From Candidatus Bathyarchaeota archaeon (lineage in GTDB: Archaea > Thermoproteota > Bathyarchaeia > Bathyarchaeales > WUQV01): a stretch of DNA of 33,491 bases. This document shows positions 28,747 through 33,131 of the stretch, in pieces. Below the pieces are notes generated by a model. The model was not told the DNA's origin, did no database searches, and worked only from the letters and a program-made list of their open reading frames with translations. How positions within the stretch are numbered: the stretch's first letter is position 1; each line of letters opens with the position of its first letter. The stretch is taken from NCBI GenBank assembly GCA_009889585.1, contig WUQV01000054.1, forward strand, positions 1 to 33,491. The letters are read 5' to 3'. A program made the translations under genes and the position numbers.

Positions 28747-29539
28747 ATGTATGAAATCGAGAGGGTTGACGAAAGCAACAGGCAATCGGTTATCGATCTC
28801 CTTAAGGCAGACGCTATAAGGCACGTTTTCGCACTTTACGACGTCCAATACGAACCTGAGCATACAATCATGTATGCGGCCTTCGAGAAAGGCTTGTTAA
28901 AAGGGTATATCCTCATCTACACAGCTATGGAGTTCCCAAGCGTCATATTGGAGTGCACTGGAGACGTAGCCGGGGAGCTAATGAGCTACGTACCCGAAGG
29001 CAACTTCATTATGCAAGCTCCACCACAACTACTACCAATTATAAAGGACAGGTTCCCAAGCGTGAAACATTACGTCGAGGATTGGATGAGGGTCAAAAGG
29101 GGTGAAGCGAACTTCTTCAAGTCGATACTTGTACGCAAGCTGCGCGGTCCGGAGGATGCCATGAAGCTTAAGACGCTTCTTTCAACATGGGAAGGCCGCC
29201 CGACGGAAACCATAGAAAGGTGCATAAGTTGGATGAGTAGGATGCCAGCGTATGGTGTCTTCGTGAGCGGTGAGCTTGTCTCCTGCGCTGGATCCTTCCT
29301 CCAACTGCCACAGGTCTGGATGATAGGTGGGGTTTATACGCATCCAAACCAGAGGAACAAGGGATACGCAACGCTGGCCACATCAGCGATAACCGAGGAG
29401 GCCTTGGAGCGCGCGGAGTCCGCAGCTCTGTTCGTGAGGTCGGATAACCGTCCGGCCATCAGGGTTTAATGAGAAAATCGGTTACAGGAAAGTTGGTGAG
29501 AGGCTTTGGGCAGATGTAGGAACCGGGCTGAAACCCTAA
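28747..29539 (+). pseudogene. GNAT family N-acetyltransferase, frameshifted near the C-terminus
   Basis: GVYTHPNQRNKGYATLATSAITEEALERAESAALFVRSDNRPAIRV then stop; deleting one base from gtttaatgag restores VYEKIGYRKVGERLWADVGTGLKP*, the expected GNAT end. Confidence 0.82.
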
Positions 29540-29783: not shown

Positions 29784-30263
29784 TCATGAAGCGGGCTTAA
29801 AGTACTTGATATCAGTTATAGACCCTATTCGTTCAACTTTATCCTTAAAGGCTGGCTCTACAACCATTCCAATCTTAACATCCTTCGGATCAACTTCATC
29901 TATCATATGAATTAAGCCACCATTTGCAATTCGTATGAATGCCCAGACGATAGGCTTATCTAATCTCTTTCCATTCTCATCAATATAAGCAACACTATAA
30001 GTATGCACGACACCTCTTTTACCTACATCGACCCATGCATTCTCAATATTCTCAAAACACCTCTCACAATATATCCTTGGTGGCACATATGTAACATTGC
30101 ATTTAACGCATTGCGTACCTATGAAACGAGCATTCTCTTTAATCTCTAAGAAGAATCTCTCACCAGCAATTCCAGCAGTATACCGATAAACAACAGCCAT
30201 ATCTCCAATCTCATGCTTTACATCAGTAACACGAGTTAACTTCTCAAACATTGCTATTATCAC
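29784..30263 (-). CDS. DUF35 Zn-ribbon/OB-fold protein (ChsH2-like)
   Basis: CVKCNVTYVPPRIYCERCF zinc ribbon followed by WVDVGKRGVVHTYSVAYID...OB-fold. Confidence 0.9.
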   Translation of the reverse strand: MIIAMFEKLTRVTDVKHEIGDMAVVYRYTAGIAGERFFLEIKENARFIGTQCVKCNVTYVPPRIYCERCFENIENAWVDVGKRGVVHTYSVAYIDENGKRLDKPIVWAFIRIANGGLIHMIDEVDPKDVKIGMVVEPAFKDKVERIGSITDIKYFKPAS

Positions 30264-30836
30264 CTACTTGATAGGCTTAAAATACTTTATATCAGTAATG
30301 CAACCCTTCCTCTCTTCCTTCGGCTTCCAAACAGCTTGAACATTCATTCCTATCCTCACTTCAGCTGGATCTACTTCGCCTAACATATGATAAATACCCA
30401 TGCCAGGCGAGGCTCCATCGATCTCTATAACGGCTGGAATAAGCGGTTCTTTCAACCTCGAAGCATTAACTCCAATCCAAGCTATTGAAAAGGTATTCAC
30501 CCTTCCAGTATCCTTTACATATACCCACTCATCAGTCGGCCTATAACAAAGTTCGCAAAACATTCGTGGAGGAATTAATACTCGTCCACACTTATTGCAC
30601 TTCCTCGCAATAATCTTACCTTCCTTAAGTTCACTTAAGAACCTACTTATCGCTACTCCAGCCGTCCAAGCATAATATGCCTTAGCCCTTATATCGCTGA
30701 ATATTACCTTCTTCTCCTTAAAGTCCTCCTCGCTTAAGGCTATTCCCTTGAAGTCCTCAGCCTTAAACTTAGAACTCACTTTAATCACCCCCTTTGCATA
30801 ACTACGACTGAGCTCTTTTGCATGAGCTCGCCCCAT
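30264..30836 (-). CDS. DUF35 Zn-ribbon/OB-fold protein; start probably GTG near 30780 just after the thiolase stop
   Basis: CNKCGRVLIPPRMFCELCYRPTDEWVYVKDTGRVNTFSIAWIGV; upstream gggggtgat RBS-like sequence and VSSKFKAEDF start. Confidence 0.88.
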   Translation of the reverse strand: MGRAHAKELSRSYAKGVIKVSSKFKAEDFKGIALSEEDFKEKKVIFSDIRAKAYYAWTAGVAISRFLSELKEGKIIARKCNKCGRVLIPPRMFCELCYRPTDEWVYVKDTGRVNTFSIAWIGVNASRLKEPLIPAVIEIDGASPGMGIYHMLGEVDPAEVRIGMNVQAVWKPKEERKGCITDIKYFKPIK

Positions 30837-31972
30837 GCATGAGCTACTCCTATAACAGCGTCCTTCTTCACCTGCCTCTTACCTGCTTCACCTCTGAGCT
30901 GCCAAAATATCTCAGCCACCCTCATCAAGCCAGCGGCTGATATCGGGTTTCCAACGCCGAGAAGCCCTCCATCAGGGTTAAGGGGCATGTCACCGTCCCT
31001 CTCAGTCACGCCTTCCTCCGTAGCCCTCGGGGCTTCACCTGGCTTGAAGAGCAATAGCGCTTCAGCATGTTGAAGCTCCTTGTAATCGAACGGGTCGTAA
31101 GGGTTTGCGACGTCCACCTCCTTCCTCGGGTTCCTTATGCCAGCCATCCTATACGCCATGCGAGCGGCTTCCTCAAGGTACTTACAGTAAGCTAGATCCC
31201 TATCAGTCCAATGTTGCGTATCTATGCCGGATCCTATGCCCGTTATCCACACGGGTACGTCCGTAAGCCTCTTCGCAAGCCCTTCGTGAGCGAGGATTAT
31301 CGCGACTGCCCCATCTGAAGTAGGGCTTATGTCCAATCGCCTTACGGGATCCGCTATGACCTCTGACTTCAATACGTCTTCAACCGTTATCTTAGCAGCC
31401 AATTGAGCACATGGATGGTCTAAGGCGTTCCTCTTGTTCTTAACTGATACTAACGCTATTTGCTCGTGTCTTACGTTGTAGACGTGCATGTACCTTTTCA
31501 TCTCGAAGGCGAAGTTCCATGCGACGTTAAGGCCTATCGGCCTCACTAATATGGGGTCGTAAATTGTTAAGAAGGCGTATTGAGGGTGTGGAAGGCATGA
31601 TGACATCTTTTCCTCGCAAACTACGAGACATACGTCAGATAGGCCTGATGCTACCGTCCAAAAGGCTGTTGGGACTACGCCTACGCCAGTAGAGCCGCCG
31701 TCGAATTGGCGGAAGCAAGGCTTCCTCCAAGCTCCGGATCCATCCGCTAGGTATTCACCCTTCATGTGAACTCCGTCGAAGGCGTCAGGGGCTGAGCCTA
31801 TGACGACGGCGTCGACGTCCTTCAACGTAAGGCCAGCTGAGTCCAGTGCCATCTTGGCCGCTTCGTAAGCGAGCTCCTTCCCCGTTTCCTTCGCCCTTCG
31901 TACGAACTTCGTCATGCCAGCTCCGACTATCGCCACCCGACGTTTGATGGCGGCTATCGTCTTGACGACCAA
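30785..31972 (-). CDS. Thiolase-fold protein (SCP2-thiolase-like), canonical catalytic residues apparently absent
   Basis: RVAIVGAGMTKFVRR..., LDSAGLTLKDVDAVVIG, RRLDISPTSDGAVAIILA, NPDGGLLGVGNPISAAGLMRVAE; thiolase superfamily throughout. Confidence 0.88.
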   Translation of the reverse strand: MVVKTIAAIKRRVAIVGAGMTKFVRRAKETGKELAYEAAKMALDSAGLTLKDVDAVVIGSAPDAFDGVHMKGEYLADGSGAWRKPCFRQFDGGSTGVGVVPTAFWTVASGLSDVCLVVCEEKMSSCLPHPQYAFLTIYDPILVRPIGLNVAWNFAFEMKRYMHVYNVRHEQIALVSVKNKRNALDHPCAQLAAKITVEDVLKSEVIADPVRRLDISPTSDGAVAIILAHEGLAKRLTDVPVWITGIGSGIDTQHWTDRDLAYCKYLEEAARMAYRMAGIRNPRKEVDVANPYDPFDYKELQHAEALLLFKPGEAPRATEEGVTERDGDMPLNPDGGLLGVGNPISAAGLMRVAEIFWQLRGEAGKRQVKKDAVIGVAHAWGELMQKSSVVVMQRG

Positions 31973-31976
31973 CGCC

Positions 31977-33131
31977 TCATCCCTCCGTGCTTAACACGAC
32001 GACGGCCCCTGAAGTCGTGGGGATTCCCCTCCACGTTTGAGCGACACCCACCTTGGCATCTTCGACCTGACGGCCTTGGGCTTGGCCCCTAAGCTGAAGG
32101 ACGACCTCCAACGCCCTCGAGAGCCCGCATGCCTCAAGGAGGTTGCCGACGCCTAAGCATCCTCCTGACGGGTTAACGGGGAGCTCGCCGTTAACGTAAA
32201 ACGAGCCAGCCTCTAAAAGCTCCCCTGCCTCGCCACGAGTACAAAGCCTTAACGCCTCGACGTGTTGAAGCTCCTTATATGAGAACTTGTCATCGACCTC
32301 CGCCACGTGTATTTGCCTCCTCGGGTTCGTTATCCCAGCCATCTTATACGCCATGTCGGCCGCGACCTCAACGTAGACCGCCCTTCCCCAATCCCGGCCG
32401 TCTAAGTTCGGCGTGTCAATAGCCCATCCTACGCCTCTCACCCATATCGGCACGTCCGTAAGACGTCGGGCGACATCCCCTGACGCGAGTACCATGACGA
32501 TCGCCCCTTCAGCTGTAGAGCTAACCTCTAACGCCTTTAACGGCGAGAAGACGTAAGGCGAATTTAAAACGTCTTCAACCGTTAACTCAGCTGGGTAAGC
32601 AGCGTTAGGGTTGAATATGGCGTTTCGCTTATTCTTAACGACTACTTGAGCGCATTGTTCCTCGCTTACGCCAGTTTCATATAAATAACGCCTCATCTCC
32701 AAGCCAGCTATGTAAAATGGATGCCCTCCTAATGGCTTGACGTAAACGGGGTCTGTTGCATGCTGTATTATGCCAGCATAGGAGAGTATATCAGAGGCCT
32801 TGCTATGAGATTCCACTACAACTACTTCAAATAGGTTGCTACGTATCATCATGTATGCGTTAATAAGCGCATGAAGGCCATCCCCTGTTATATGCCAAGT
32901 CGGCTTGAGGACTGCCCCTAGTTGATCTGGCACGTATTCCTCGAATATGCTATAGCCAGCCCAATAATCTTCATCTGCGCTTATGAACGCGTCGACATCC
33001 ACTTGAGGGTTTACGTTAGCGTCTGCATAAGCCTTCACAGCCGCCTCGTAAACCATCTCTTGGAACGATAGGTCCGGTGTACAGGACTTGGACCCAGCCC
33101 AGCCCACGCCGATTATAGCTACTTCTAACAT
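31977..33131 (-). CDS. Thiolase-fold protein (paralog), canonical catalytic residues apparently absent
   Basis: EVAIIGVGWAGSKSCTPDLSFQEMVYEAAVKAYADANV..., VSSTAEGAIVMVLAS, NPSGGCLGVGNLLEACGLSRALE. Confidence 0.85.
   Translation of the reverse strand: MLEVAIIGVGWAGSKSCTPDLSFQEMVYEAAVKAYADANVNPQVDVDAFISADEDYWAGYSIFEEYVPDQLGAVLKPTWHITGDGLHALINAYMMIRSNLFEVVVVESHSKASDILSYAGIIQHATDPVYVKPLGGHPFYIAGLEMRRYLYETGVSEEQCAQVVVKNKRNAIFNPNAAYPAELTVEDVLNSPYVFSPLKALEVSSTAEGAIVMVLASGDVARRLTDVPIWVRGVGWAIDTPNLDGRDWGRAVYVEVAADMAYKMAGITNPRRQIHVAEVDDKFSYKELQHVEALRLCTRGEAGELLEAGSFYVNGELPVNPSGGCLGVGNLLEACGLSRALEVVLQLRGQAQGRQVEDAKVGVAQTWRGIPTTSGAVVVLSTEG

Follow-up and report, generated by a model that had tools for sequence, protein, structure and literature searches.

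Thiolase-fold proteins joined to DUF35 proteins form several described complexes, and in the larger complexes that have been solved the DUF35 proteins bind the thiolase-fold partners (PMC6996347). Such heteromers include BbsAB (benzoylsuccinyl-CoA thiolase) and the PhlABC acylase, the latter pairing thiolase-fold subunits of unequal function, as well as the archaeal acetoacetyl-CoA thiolase/DUF35/HMG-CoA synthase complex (6ESQ, 6ET9), whose thiolase keeps CASG, HDCF and the His at the GHP position. In the steroid aldolases Ltp2-ChsH2 and Sal-Shy (6OK1, 9MYR) a homodimeric thiolase-fold core has a DUF35 partner and linked hydratase domains, and a tyrosine, Tyr294 of TcLtp2 and Tyr302 of CtSal, is essential in both (PMC12329534). 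Another set, ltp3/ltp4/Rv3521, has two tandem Cys-less thiolase-fold proteins and two DUF35 domains, and its members have been implicated genetically as aldol lyases required for C24-branched sterol side chains; because one strain of M. neoaurum still formed 4-HBC from phytosterols after deletion of ltp3 or ltp4, the exact step of these genes is not settled.

The window analysed here (the whole stretch of 33,491 nucleotides) carries a quartet of two SCP2-type thiolase-fold and two DUF35 open reading frames, T2-T1-D2-D1, all on the minus strand. All four were found where the preliminary description had placed them and in the order that it gave (thiolase, thiolase, DUF35, DUF35):

31977..33131, minus strand: T2, thiolase-fold protein of 384 aa (Pfam, NCBIfam, alignment, AlphaFold2)
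30785..31972, minus strand: T1, thiolase-fold protein of 395 aa, probable catalytic subunit as judged from sequence (Pfam, NCBIfam, alignment, AlphaFold2)
30264..30836, minus strand: D2, DUF35 protein with zinc ribbon and OB fold (Pfam, intact CxxC-x10-CxxC)
29784..30263, minus strand: D1, second DUF35 protein (Pfam, intact CxxC-x10-CxxC)

The likely start of D2 is the GTG at 30779, 3' of the T1 stop and of a GGGGTGA motif, rather than 30836. Genes upstream of T2 fall outside the contig.

Thiolase_C_1 was matched above its curated cut-off by T1 (1e-34) and T2 (6e-30), and Thiolase_N by T1 only; T1 is a clear member of PRK06065 (627 bits, cut-off 455) and T2 falls just below the cut-off of PRK06066 (506.6 bits against 516). 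The names of these two NCBIfam families (thiolase domain-containing protein) give the fold and attach no function. Single-chain AlphaFold2 models, with pLDDT values of 84.3 for T1 (loops 128-133 and 339-342 low) and 93.4 for T2, have the thiolase fold and match thiolases of the PDB with TM values of 0.8-0.9, the best structural matches of both being the Cys thiolases 7yvy and 6esq/6et9, and the archaeal complex of the latter being the best fold match of T2. D1 and D2 both matched zf-ChsH2 and OB_ChsH2_C above the curated cut-offs and have the rubredoxin-like CxxC-x10-CxxC zinc ribbon and OB fold of DUF35 scaffolds, which bears out their earlier identification as DUF35 proteins. The two are 46% identical in the window and belong to distinct orthologue groups; their best PDB match was 3irb (SSO2064), followed by 6esq_E, the DUF35 protein of the thiolase/HMG-CoA synthase complex.

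Alignment with canonical Cys thiolases, two of them from the same genome, showed that the motifs quoted in the preliminary description lie at the catalytic positions and that, as it had claimed, neither thiolase-like protein has the catalytic Cys/His/Cys set: the nucleophilic Cys, the His and Cys of HDCF and the His of GHP, by which classical and SCP2-type thiolases are recognised, are all gone. In T1 they have been replaced by residues that are the same in every member of a set of 81 archaeal and bacterial T1 proteins:

31694..31696, minus strand: codon of T1 Gly93, at the position of the nucleophilic Cys, in the loop GGxTG (Gly in 81/81)
31097..31099, minus strand: codon of T1 Tyr292 (YDPF), aligned with the HDCF His (Tyr in 81/81)
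31091..31093, minus strand: codon of T1 Pro294, aligned with the second catalytic Cys, in HDCF (Pro in 81/81)
30947..30949, minus strand: codon of T1 Asn342 (GNP), aligned with the GHP His (Asn in 81/81)

This invariance is far beyond chance, and the segments GVGNP, GGxTG, YDPF and WG show no or hardly any variation across the span from archaea to Chloroflexota, with a mean column identity of 76% for T1 over 41 archaeal and bacterial sequences. One sign put forward earlier, the loss of the C-terminal CxG, proved uninformative because canonical archaeal thiolases are also without it and read THNVGG there; their second Cys sits in HDCF, where T1 has Pro. Loss of CxG was thus discarded as a mark of lost catalysis. 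Since the T1 site is invariant in 81 sequences, a pseudogene or an artefact of genome assembly from metagenomes was also rejected for the family; the copy in the window is intact, yet unusually divergent.

The thiolase-fold pair is unequal, as T1 alone keeps the replacement site. T2 has no Cys at the nucleophile position, reads VDDKF and GNL at the remaining positions, and its relatives vary at that of the GHP His (H22/Y22/N14/W8), so that a conserved catalytic set, present in T1 as an invariant replacement, is absent in T2, probably a non-catalytic or structural partner.

Examination of related genomes showed that the four genes have stayed together in numerous archaea and in a number of bacteria. 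A complete same-strand T2-T1-D2-D1 arrangement was present in 67 of 80 related loci, with all gaps below 100 nt in 60, and T2 adjoins T1 by coordinates in all 34 genomes above the T1 cut-off within a 151-genome sample of the phylum. Among 14 control genomes one, probably that of Sulfolobus acidocaldarius, scored above the cut-offs of both families. More divergent relatives were seen in Cupriavidus, with two thiolases and two DUF35 genes in the order T-T-D-D, and in Tsukamurella (locus L129), where a double-DUF35 fusion accompanies two thiolases; their T1-like members carry GGxTG/AGSVGG, YxPF (YEPC in Cupriavidus) and NP motifs. The preliminary description had given each thiolase a DUF35 partner: DUF35 partnering stands, and the actinobacterial fusion points to one heteromeric assembly more than to a division into two separate pairs. 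The same linkage bears on the notion that D1 and D2 are translation recovery (Trf-like) proteins lying beside thiolase-like genes by chance. Sso2509 (Trf), which acts on aIF2 in Sulfolobus, is indeed a DUF35 protein, and D2 has a weak match (E = 0.026) to 6htj, annotated as a Zn-ribbon nucleic-acid-binding protein; however, SSO2064 and 6esq_E match D1 and D2 far better and both genes remain beside T1 and T2 in those 67 loci, and we rejected the translation role as the best reading, regarding it as extremely improbable. We found no earlier description of the archaeal quartet in the literature searched.

What the assembly does may be approached through the Ltp2 and Sal aldolases. Like them, T1 combines a thiolase fold and a DUF35 partner with a glycine-rich loop where the Cys would be and a Tyr where HDCF has its His, and it has lost the GHP His. 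The alignment puts its Tyr292, within the YDxF that holds their tyrosine base, opposite Tyr294 of TcLtp2 and Tyr302 of CtSal. The second catalytic residue is not shared: Asn342 of T1 aligns with Tyr344 of TcLtp2, and Pro294 with Cys304 of CtSal and His296 of TcLtp2. The homodimeric core and linked hydratase domains of these aldolases also differ from the T1/T2 quartet, no hydratase being recognised among the recurrent annotated neighbours of the archaeal-type quartet. In the phylogeny a branch with support of 100/99 parts T1 and T2 from Ltp2/Sal, and forcing T1 into the Ltp2/Sal clade was rejected (AU p = 0.0094), which rules out direct membership of that family. Of the likeness to Ltp2-type aldolases suggested earlier there remains a resemblance in mechanism, in the Tyr, the glycine loop and the loss of the GHP His, and membership of their family falls away; as T1 lies outside the clade, the Ltp2/Sal mechanism may not carry over.

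Because the replacement site resembles that of the steroid aldolases, T1 is probably an enzyme of C-C bonds in acyl-CoA compounds. We therefore lean, with moderate confidence, towards T2-T1-D2-D1 being one heteromeric, Cys-independent acyl-CoA C-C enzyme, likeliest an aldolase or retro-aldolase with T1 as the catalytic subunit. Where the preliminary description had left open a heteromeric C-C lyase/aldolase or a scaffold, the Tyr site favours the aldolase, and the scaffold takes a lower place. A related protein that lacks the Cys loop and reads YDCF, TbSLP, slowly decarboxylates malonyl-CoA (PMC12329534), and the complex might by the same token remove carboxyl groups or hydrolyse acyl-CoA (with malonyl-CoA-type or beta-keto compounds as substrates, for example), using an oxyanion pocket without covalent catalysis. 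We consider this very unlikely, since the activity of TbSLP is very low, an aldolase role has been proposed for TbSLP itself (PMC12329534) and the neighbours of the quartet do not point to malonyl-CoA chemistry.

Under the aldolase reading, the complex and its stoichiometry would be those of a T1-T2 thiolase-fold heterodimer flanked by D1 and D2. Tyr292 would act on the beta-hydroxyl, as base in cleavage and as acid in condensation, the hydroxyl oxygen being held by backbone amides of the Gly92/Gly93 loop, and the thioester oxygen or enolate by Asn342 with the C-terminal Trp380-Gly381 loop. T2, without conserved chemistry of its own, would make up the second half of the dimer and may contribute to the acyl pocket, and D1 and D2, as zinc-ribbon/OB scaffolds, may give the entrance its shape or serve as docking sites for other enzymes. 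A 3-hydroxyacyl-CoA, small and branched, would be the probable substrate, or else the ketone and acyl-CoA formed from it.

Among described proteins, those nearest to T1 appear to be in the set of two thiolases and a double DUF35 that matches ltp3/ltp4/Rv3521. The Tsukamurella genes, identified as ltp3/ltp4 by order, length and NCBIfam name rather than by accession, have the order and sizes given for Rv3521-ltp4-ltp3; their T1-like member shares the glycine loop, YxPF and NP. Ltp3/Ltp4-type proteins lie on the T1/T2 side of the 100/99 branch, and grouping T1 with the Ltp3-like (Ta) proteins was not rejected (p = 0.27), with no one-to-one pairing of T1 and T2 with Ltp3 and Ltp4. The Tsukamurella set nevertheless differs from the quartet in its fused DUF35 domains, the first zinc ribbon being without its Cys, in YVPF instead of YDPF, in an identity of only 36% and in its sterol gene neighbourhood. 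As a tentative proposal, which we hold at rather less than even confidence, the quartet may represent a heteromeric acyl-CoA aldolase of great age and wide distribution, not described before and with a catalytic set of its own (Gly loop, YDPF Tyr, GNP Asn) lying across an unequal T1-T2 dimer, that forms or cleaves branched 3-hydroxyacyl-CoAs in archaea and bacteria without sterols, some of them without acyl-CoA dehydrogenases. An aldolase here would give archaeal acyl-CoA metabolism a Cys-free step at C-C bonds, hint at branched-chain handling without sterol pathways and connect ltp3 and ltp4, sterol genes that are poorly understood, with an enzyme group of far greater age and breadth, one accessible in species that are easily handled in the laboratory.

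Genes of acyl-CoA metabolism neighbour the quartet in 43 of the 73 loci with at least eight genes, among them acyl-CoA dehydrogenases (29), acyl-CoA mutases (11), CoA-transferases and acyl-CoA synthetases. The settings follow lineage: isobutyryl-CoA mutase-like neighbours in Bathyarchaeia (we found no published support for the mutase residue signature in the literature searched), CoA-transferase with acyl-CoA dehydrogenase in Archaeoglobus and Chloroflexota, and 2-oxoacid oxidoreductase in Nitrososphaeria. Because these three differ, no single substrate follows from them, and deducing one from neighbours was abandoned. They also bear on the possibility, which we judge quite unlikely, that both thiolase-fold proteins are dead, the quartet serving nearby enzymes (mutase, acyl-CoA dehydrogenase, CoA-transferase) as a scaffold or as a module for CoA binding or regulation. 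No complete known catalytic set is present, the T2 positions vary and DUF35 proteins serve as scaffolds in solved complexes; but a pure scaffold needs no such constancy as the T1 active-site segments have, and neighbours that vary by lineage make no single client apparent.

Many archaea and several phyla of bacteria have T1/T2-type proteins, for which the only names are thiolase or thiolase domain protein, so that acetoacetyl-CoA thiolase or beta-oxidation steps are credited to organisms in which the T1-type protein cannot do them normally. The preliminary description had warned of misleading thiolase annotation and doubted an acetyl-CoA thiolase; the replaced residues justify the warning and, as regards the classical Cys type, support the doubt. 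In the window's genome (90% complete) no match to an acyl-CoA dehydrogenase, a crotonase-type hydratase or an acyl-CoA mutase was found, which weakens an ordinary beta-oxidation setting there. The separate canonical thiolase with HMG-CoA synthase for which a search had been suggested was found on other contigs, C114 and C258 being canonical thiolases and C323 an archaeal HMG-CoA synthase homologue adjoining a thiolase fragment. Such thiolases weigh on a last alternative, rather unlikely in our view, that the quartet is a Cys-independent Claisen-type or acyl-transfer complex, thiolase- or PhlABC-like and working directly from acyl-CoA, instead of an aldol enzyme. Its fold and DUF35 partner are those of PhlABC, BbsAB and the archaeal thiolase/HMG-CoA synthase complex (T1 itself lies outside the BbsB family by profile score, 121.9 bits against a cut-off of 750), Cys thiolases are the best structural matches of both models and unequal paired subunits are known from PhlABC. 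Against this, both Cys and both His have been lost and a different invariant set stands in their place, and canonical Cys thiolases, present in many quartet loci as well as in this genome, would make the function redundant.

Read along the minus strand of the window, the two thiolase-fold proteins (T1 and T2) and the two DUF35 proteins (D1 and D2) are encoded by open reading frames in the order T2, T1, D2, D1:

31977-33131, minus strand: T2, open reading frame, Pfam Thiolase_C_1, nearest NCBIfam family PRK06066
30785-31972, minus strand: T1, open reading frame, Pfam Thiolase_C_1 and Thiolase_N, NCBIfam PRK06065
30264-30836, minus strand: D2, open reading frame, Pfam zinc ribbon and OB fold
29784-30263, minus strand: D1, open reading frame, Pfam zinc ribbon and OB fold

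Thiolase_N was matched in T1 only. T1 is a member of PRK06065 (627 bits, cut-off 455) and T2 is closest to PRK06066 (506.6 bits, cut-off 516), both families being labelled merely 'thiolase domain-containing protein'. The GTG at 30779 is the most likely start of D2; the T1 stop codon and a GGGGTGA motif directly precede it. A GNAT acetyltransferase gene (28747-29469) lies convergent to D1, with no evident tie to the quartet.

When genome contigs were scanned, T1 relatives turned up at 80 loci. The groups represented include Bathyarchaeota, Nitrososphaeria, Geothermarchaeota, Marsarchaeota, Archaeoglobus, Chloroflexota, Zixibacteria, WOR-3, Armatimonadota and Symbiobacterium. The complete same-strand quartet was present in 67 of the loci (all gaps below 100 nt in 60), and contig ends truncate most of the others. 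Of the two DUF35 genes, the first was nearer to window D2 in 76/76 loci and the second nearer to D1 in 66/74, with zinc ligands intact in 71 of the 76 and 69 of the 74, respectively. T1 scored above cut-off in 34 of 151 genomes of the phylum, and the coordinates of both searches placed T2 beside it in all 34. This linkage is strong evidence that the quartet is one functional unit, though it does not prove that the proteins form a complex.

We aligned the T1 and T2 relatives with two kinds of reference: canonical thiolases, both those of neighbouring loci and those of the same genome, and sequences of solved structures. In T1, Gly93 occupies the place of the nucleophilic Cys, Y292-D293-P294-F295 that of HDCF and Asn342 that of the GHP His; the Gly, the complete YDPF and the complete GNP are invariant in all 81 T1 proteins, mean column identity being 76% over 41 of these. 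T2 relatives have no Cys at the first site, mostly DD for HD, and H, Y, N or W at the GHP site. The loss of thiolase catalytic residues proposed in the preliminary description is a family-level fact that extends beyond the window copy, and the label 'thiolase' is misleading. The missing C-terminal CxG had been read as a further sign of lost catalysis, but it does not discriminate, because canonical archaeal thiolases have THNVGG in that position, their second Cys being part of HDCF. Another Cys-less thiolase-fold variant, distinct from T1, is the archaeal thiolase-like ST0096 of Sulfolobus tokodaii (PDB 4yzo), with NTSGSGG at the Cys site and both His kept.

T1 and T2 each formed a single clade in the tree (99/99 and 99/98), and a 100/99 branch separated them, together with bacterial two-thiolase/two-DUF35 proteins, from canonical thiolases and the steroid aldolases Ltp2 and Sal. 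This branch and the rejection of a topology joining T1 to Ltp2/Sal (p-AU 0.0094) rule out membership of that family; joining T1 to Ltp3-like proteins was not rejected (p-AU 0.27). The bacterial sets come from Tsukamurella (a fused double-DUF35 protein and two thiolases, surrounded by sterol genes), Cupriavidus (order T-T-D-D) and Rhodococcus, and their T1-like members, reading AGSVGG/GGATGG/GGTVGG, YVPF/YAPF/YEPC and NP, have Tyr and Asn replacements identical to those of T1. The smaller Tsukamurella thiolase matches PRK07937 'lipid-transfer protein' (593 bits), and gene order and lengths there agree with those of Rv3521-ltp4-ltp3 in Mycobacterium. Ltp3/Ltp4-like sets appear as nearer kin of T1/T2 than Ltp2, and the double-DUF35 fusion suggests a shared assembly for D1 and D2. 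As cited in PMC8708139, Wilbrink 2012 describes ltp3 and ltp4 as essential aldol lyases of C24-branched sterol side-chain degradation; an Rv3521 homologue adjoins ltp4 (PMC9782250), and one M. neoaurum strain still formed 4-HBC after deletion of ltp3 or of ltp4 (PMC10398937).

The comparison with Ltp2 made in the preliminary description fails as membership and holds as analogy, T1 sharing the Tyr and the glycine loop. In TcLtp2 the YDHF motif supplies the base, Tyr294, and Tyr344 serves as the acid; in CtSal, Tyr302 and Cys304 act and the backbone amide of Gly89 contacts the hydroxyl (PMC12329534). T1 differs in having Asn at the Tyr344 place and Pro at the Cys304 place. Together these features argue for a Tyr-base retro-aldol reaction, or its reverse, as the best-supported chemistry by analogy, in which the Tyr of T1 would be the base and solvent, an Asn-bound water or a T2 residue would be candidate proton donors. 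PhlABC has unequal pairs, and T2 would likewise have the structural role in the dimer. Its AlphaFold2 single-chain model is confident (93.4). The T1 model has low confidence in loops 128-133 and 339-342, and Asn342 falls in the second of them; this fits, weakly, with ordering of these loops by a partner. Foldseek top matches for both models were Cys thiolases, so function is not settled by fold alone. The quartet would encode a heteromeric, Cys-free thiolase-fold enzyme with DUF35 partners, probably an aldolase.

Among 41 relatives, window T1 is the most divergent: of the columns in which the others are at least 95% identical, it departs at 18 (runner-up 9). Many of these substitutions lie close to the active site (V91D, F98G, E290N, H301Q, G305A, S334D, A345S, Q378H), Gly93, Tyr292 and Asn342 being retained; a same-family relative (L133) has the usual residues. 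An altered specificity of window T1 is possible.

Among 73 loci with at least eight genes, 43 had acyl-CoA neighbours, including acyl-CoA dehydrogenase (29), B12 acyl-CoA mutase (11, accompanied by the small subunit, MeaB and BtuR), CoA-transferases, acyl-CoA synthetases and 2-oxoacid oxidoreductase. These point to short or branched acyl-CoAs and to no single substrate. Ten of the 11 mutases have Phe...Gln, which we take to be the isobutyryl-CoA mutase signature, and one the Tyr...Arg of the methylmalonyl-CoA type; the methylmalonyl-CoA mutase label given to the bathyarchaeal Phe...Gln proteins by NCBIfam and Pfam is probably wrong, an isobutyryl-CoA mutase-like enzyme being indicated. At eight bathyarchaeal loci (L015, L016, L017, L018, L021, L023, L029, L030) such a mutase, small subunit, MeaB and BtuR follow directly downstream of D1. 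In the window's genome (90% complete), none of PF00441 (acyl-CoA dehydrogenase), PF00378 (crotonase) and PF01642 (methylmalonyl-CoA-type mutase) had a match; either the quartet works outside beta-oxidation in this organism or those genes are absent from the assembly. A separate canonical thiolase and HMG-CoA synthase, which the preliminary description had suggested seeking, were found as thiolases on contigs C114 and C258 and, on C323, as an archaeal HMG-CoA synthase homologue below the cut-off (338.8 bits against 353) with an adjoining thiolase fragment. This homologue (locus L125) sits in a 508-aa open frame starting with a DUF35-like zinc-ribbon segment, so DUF35 and HMG-CoA synthase may be fused here or arranged in an unusual way.
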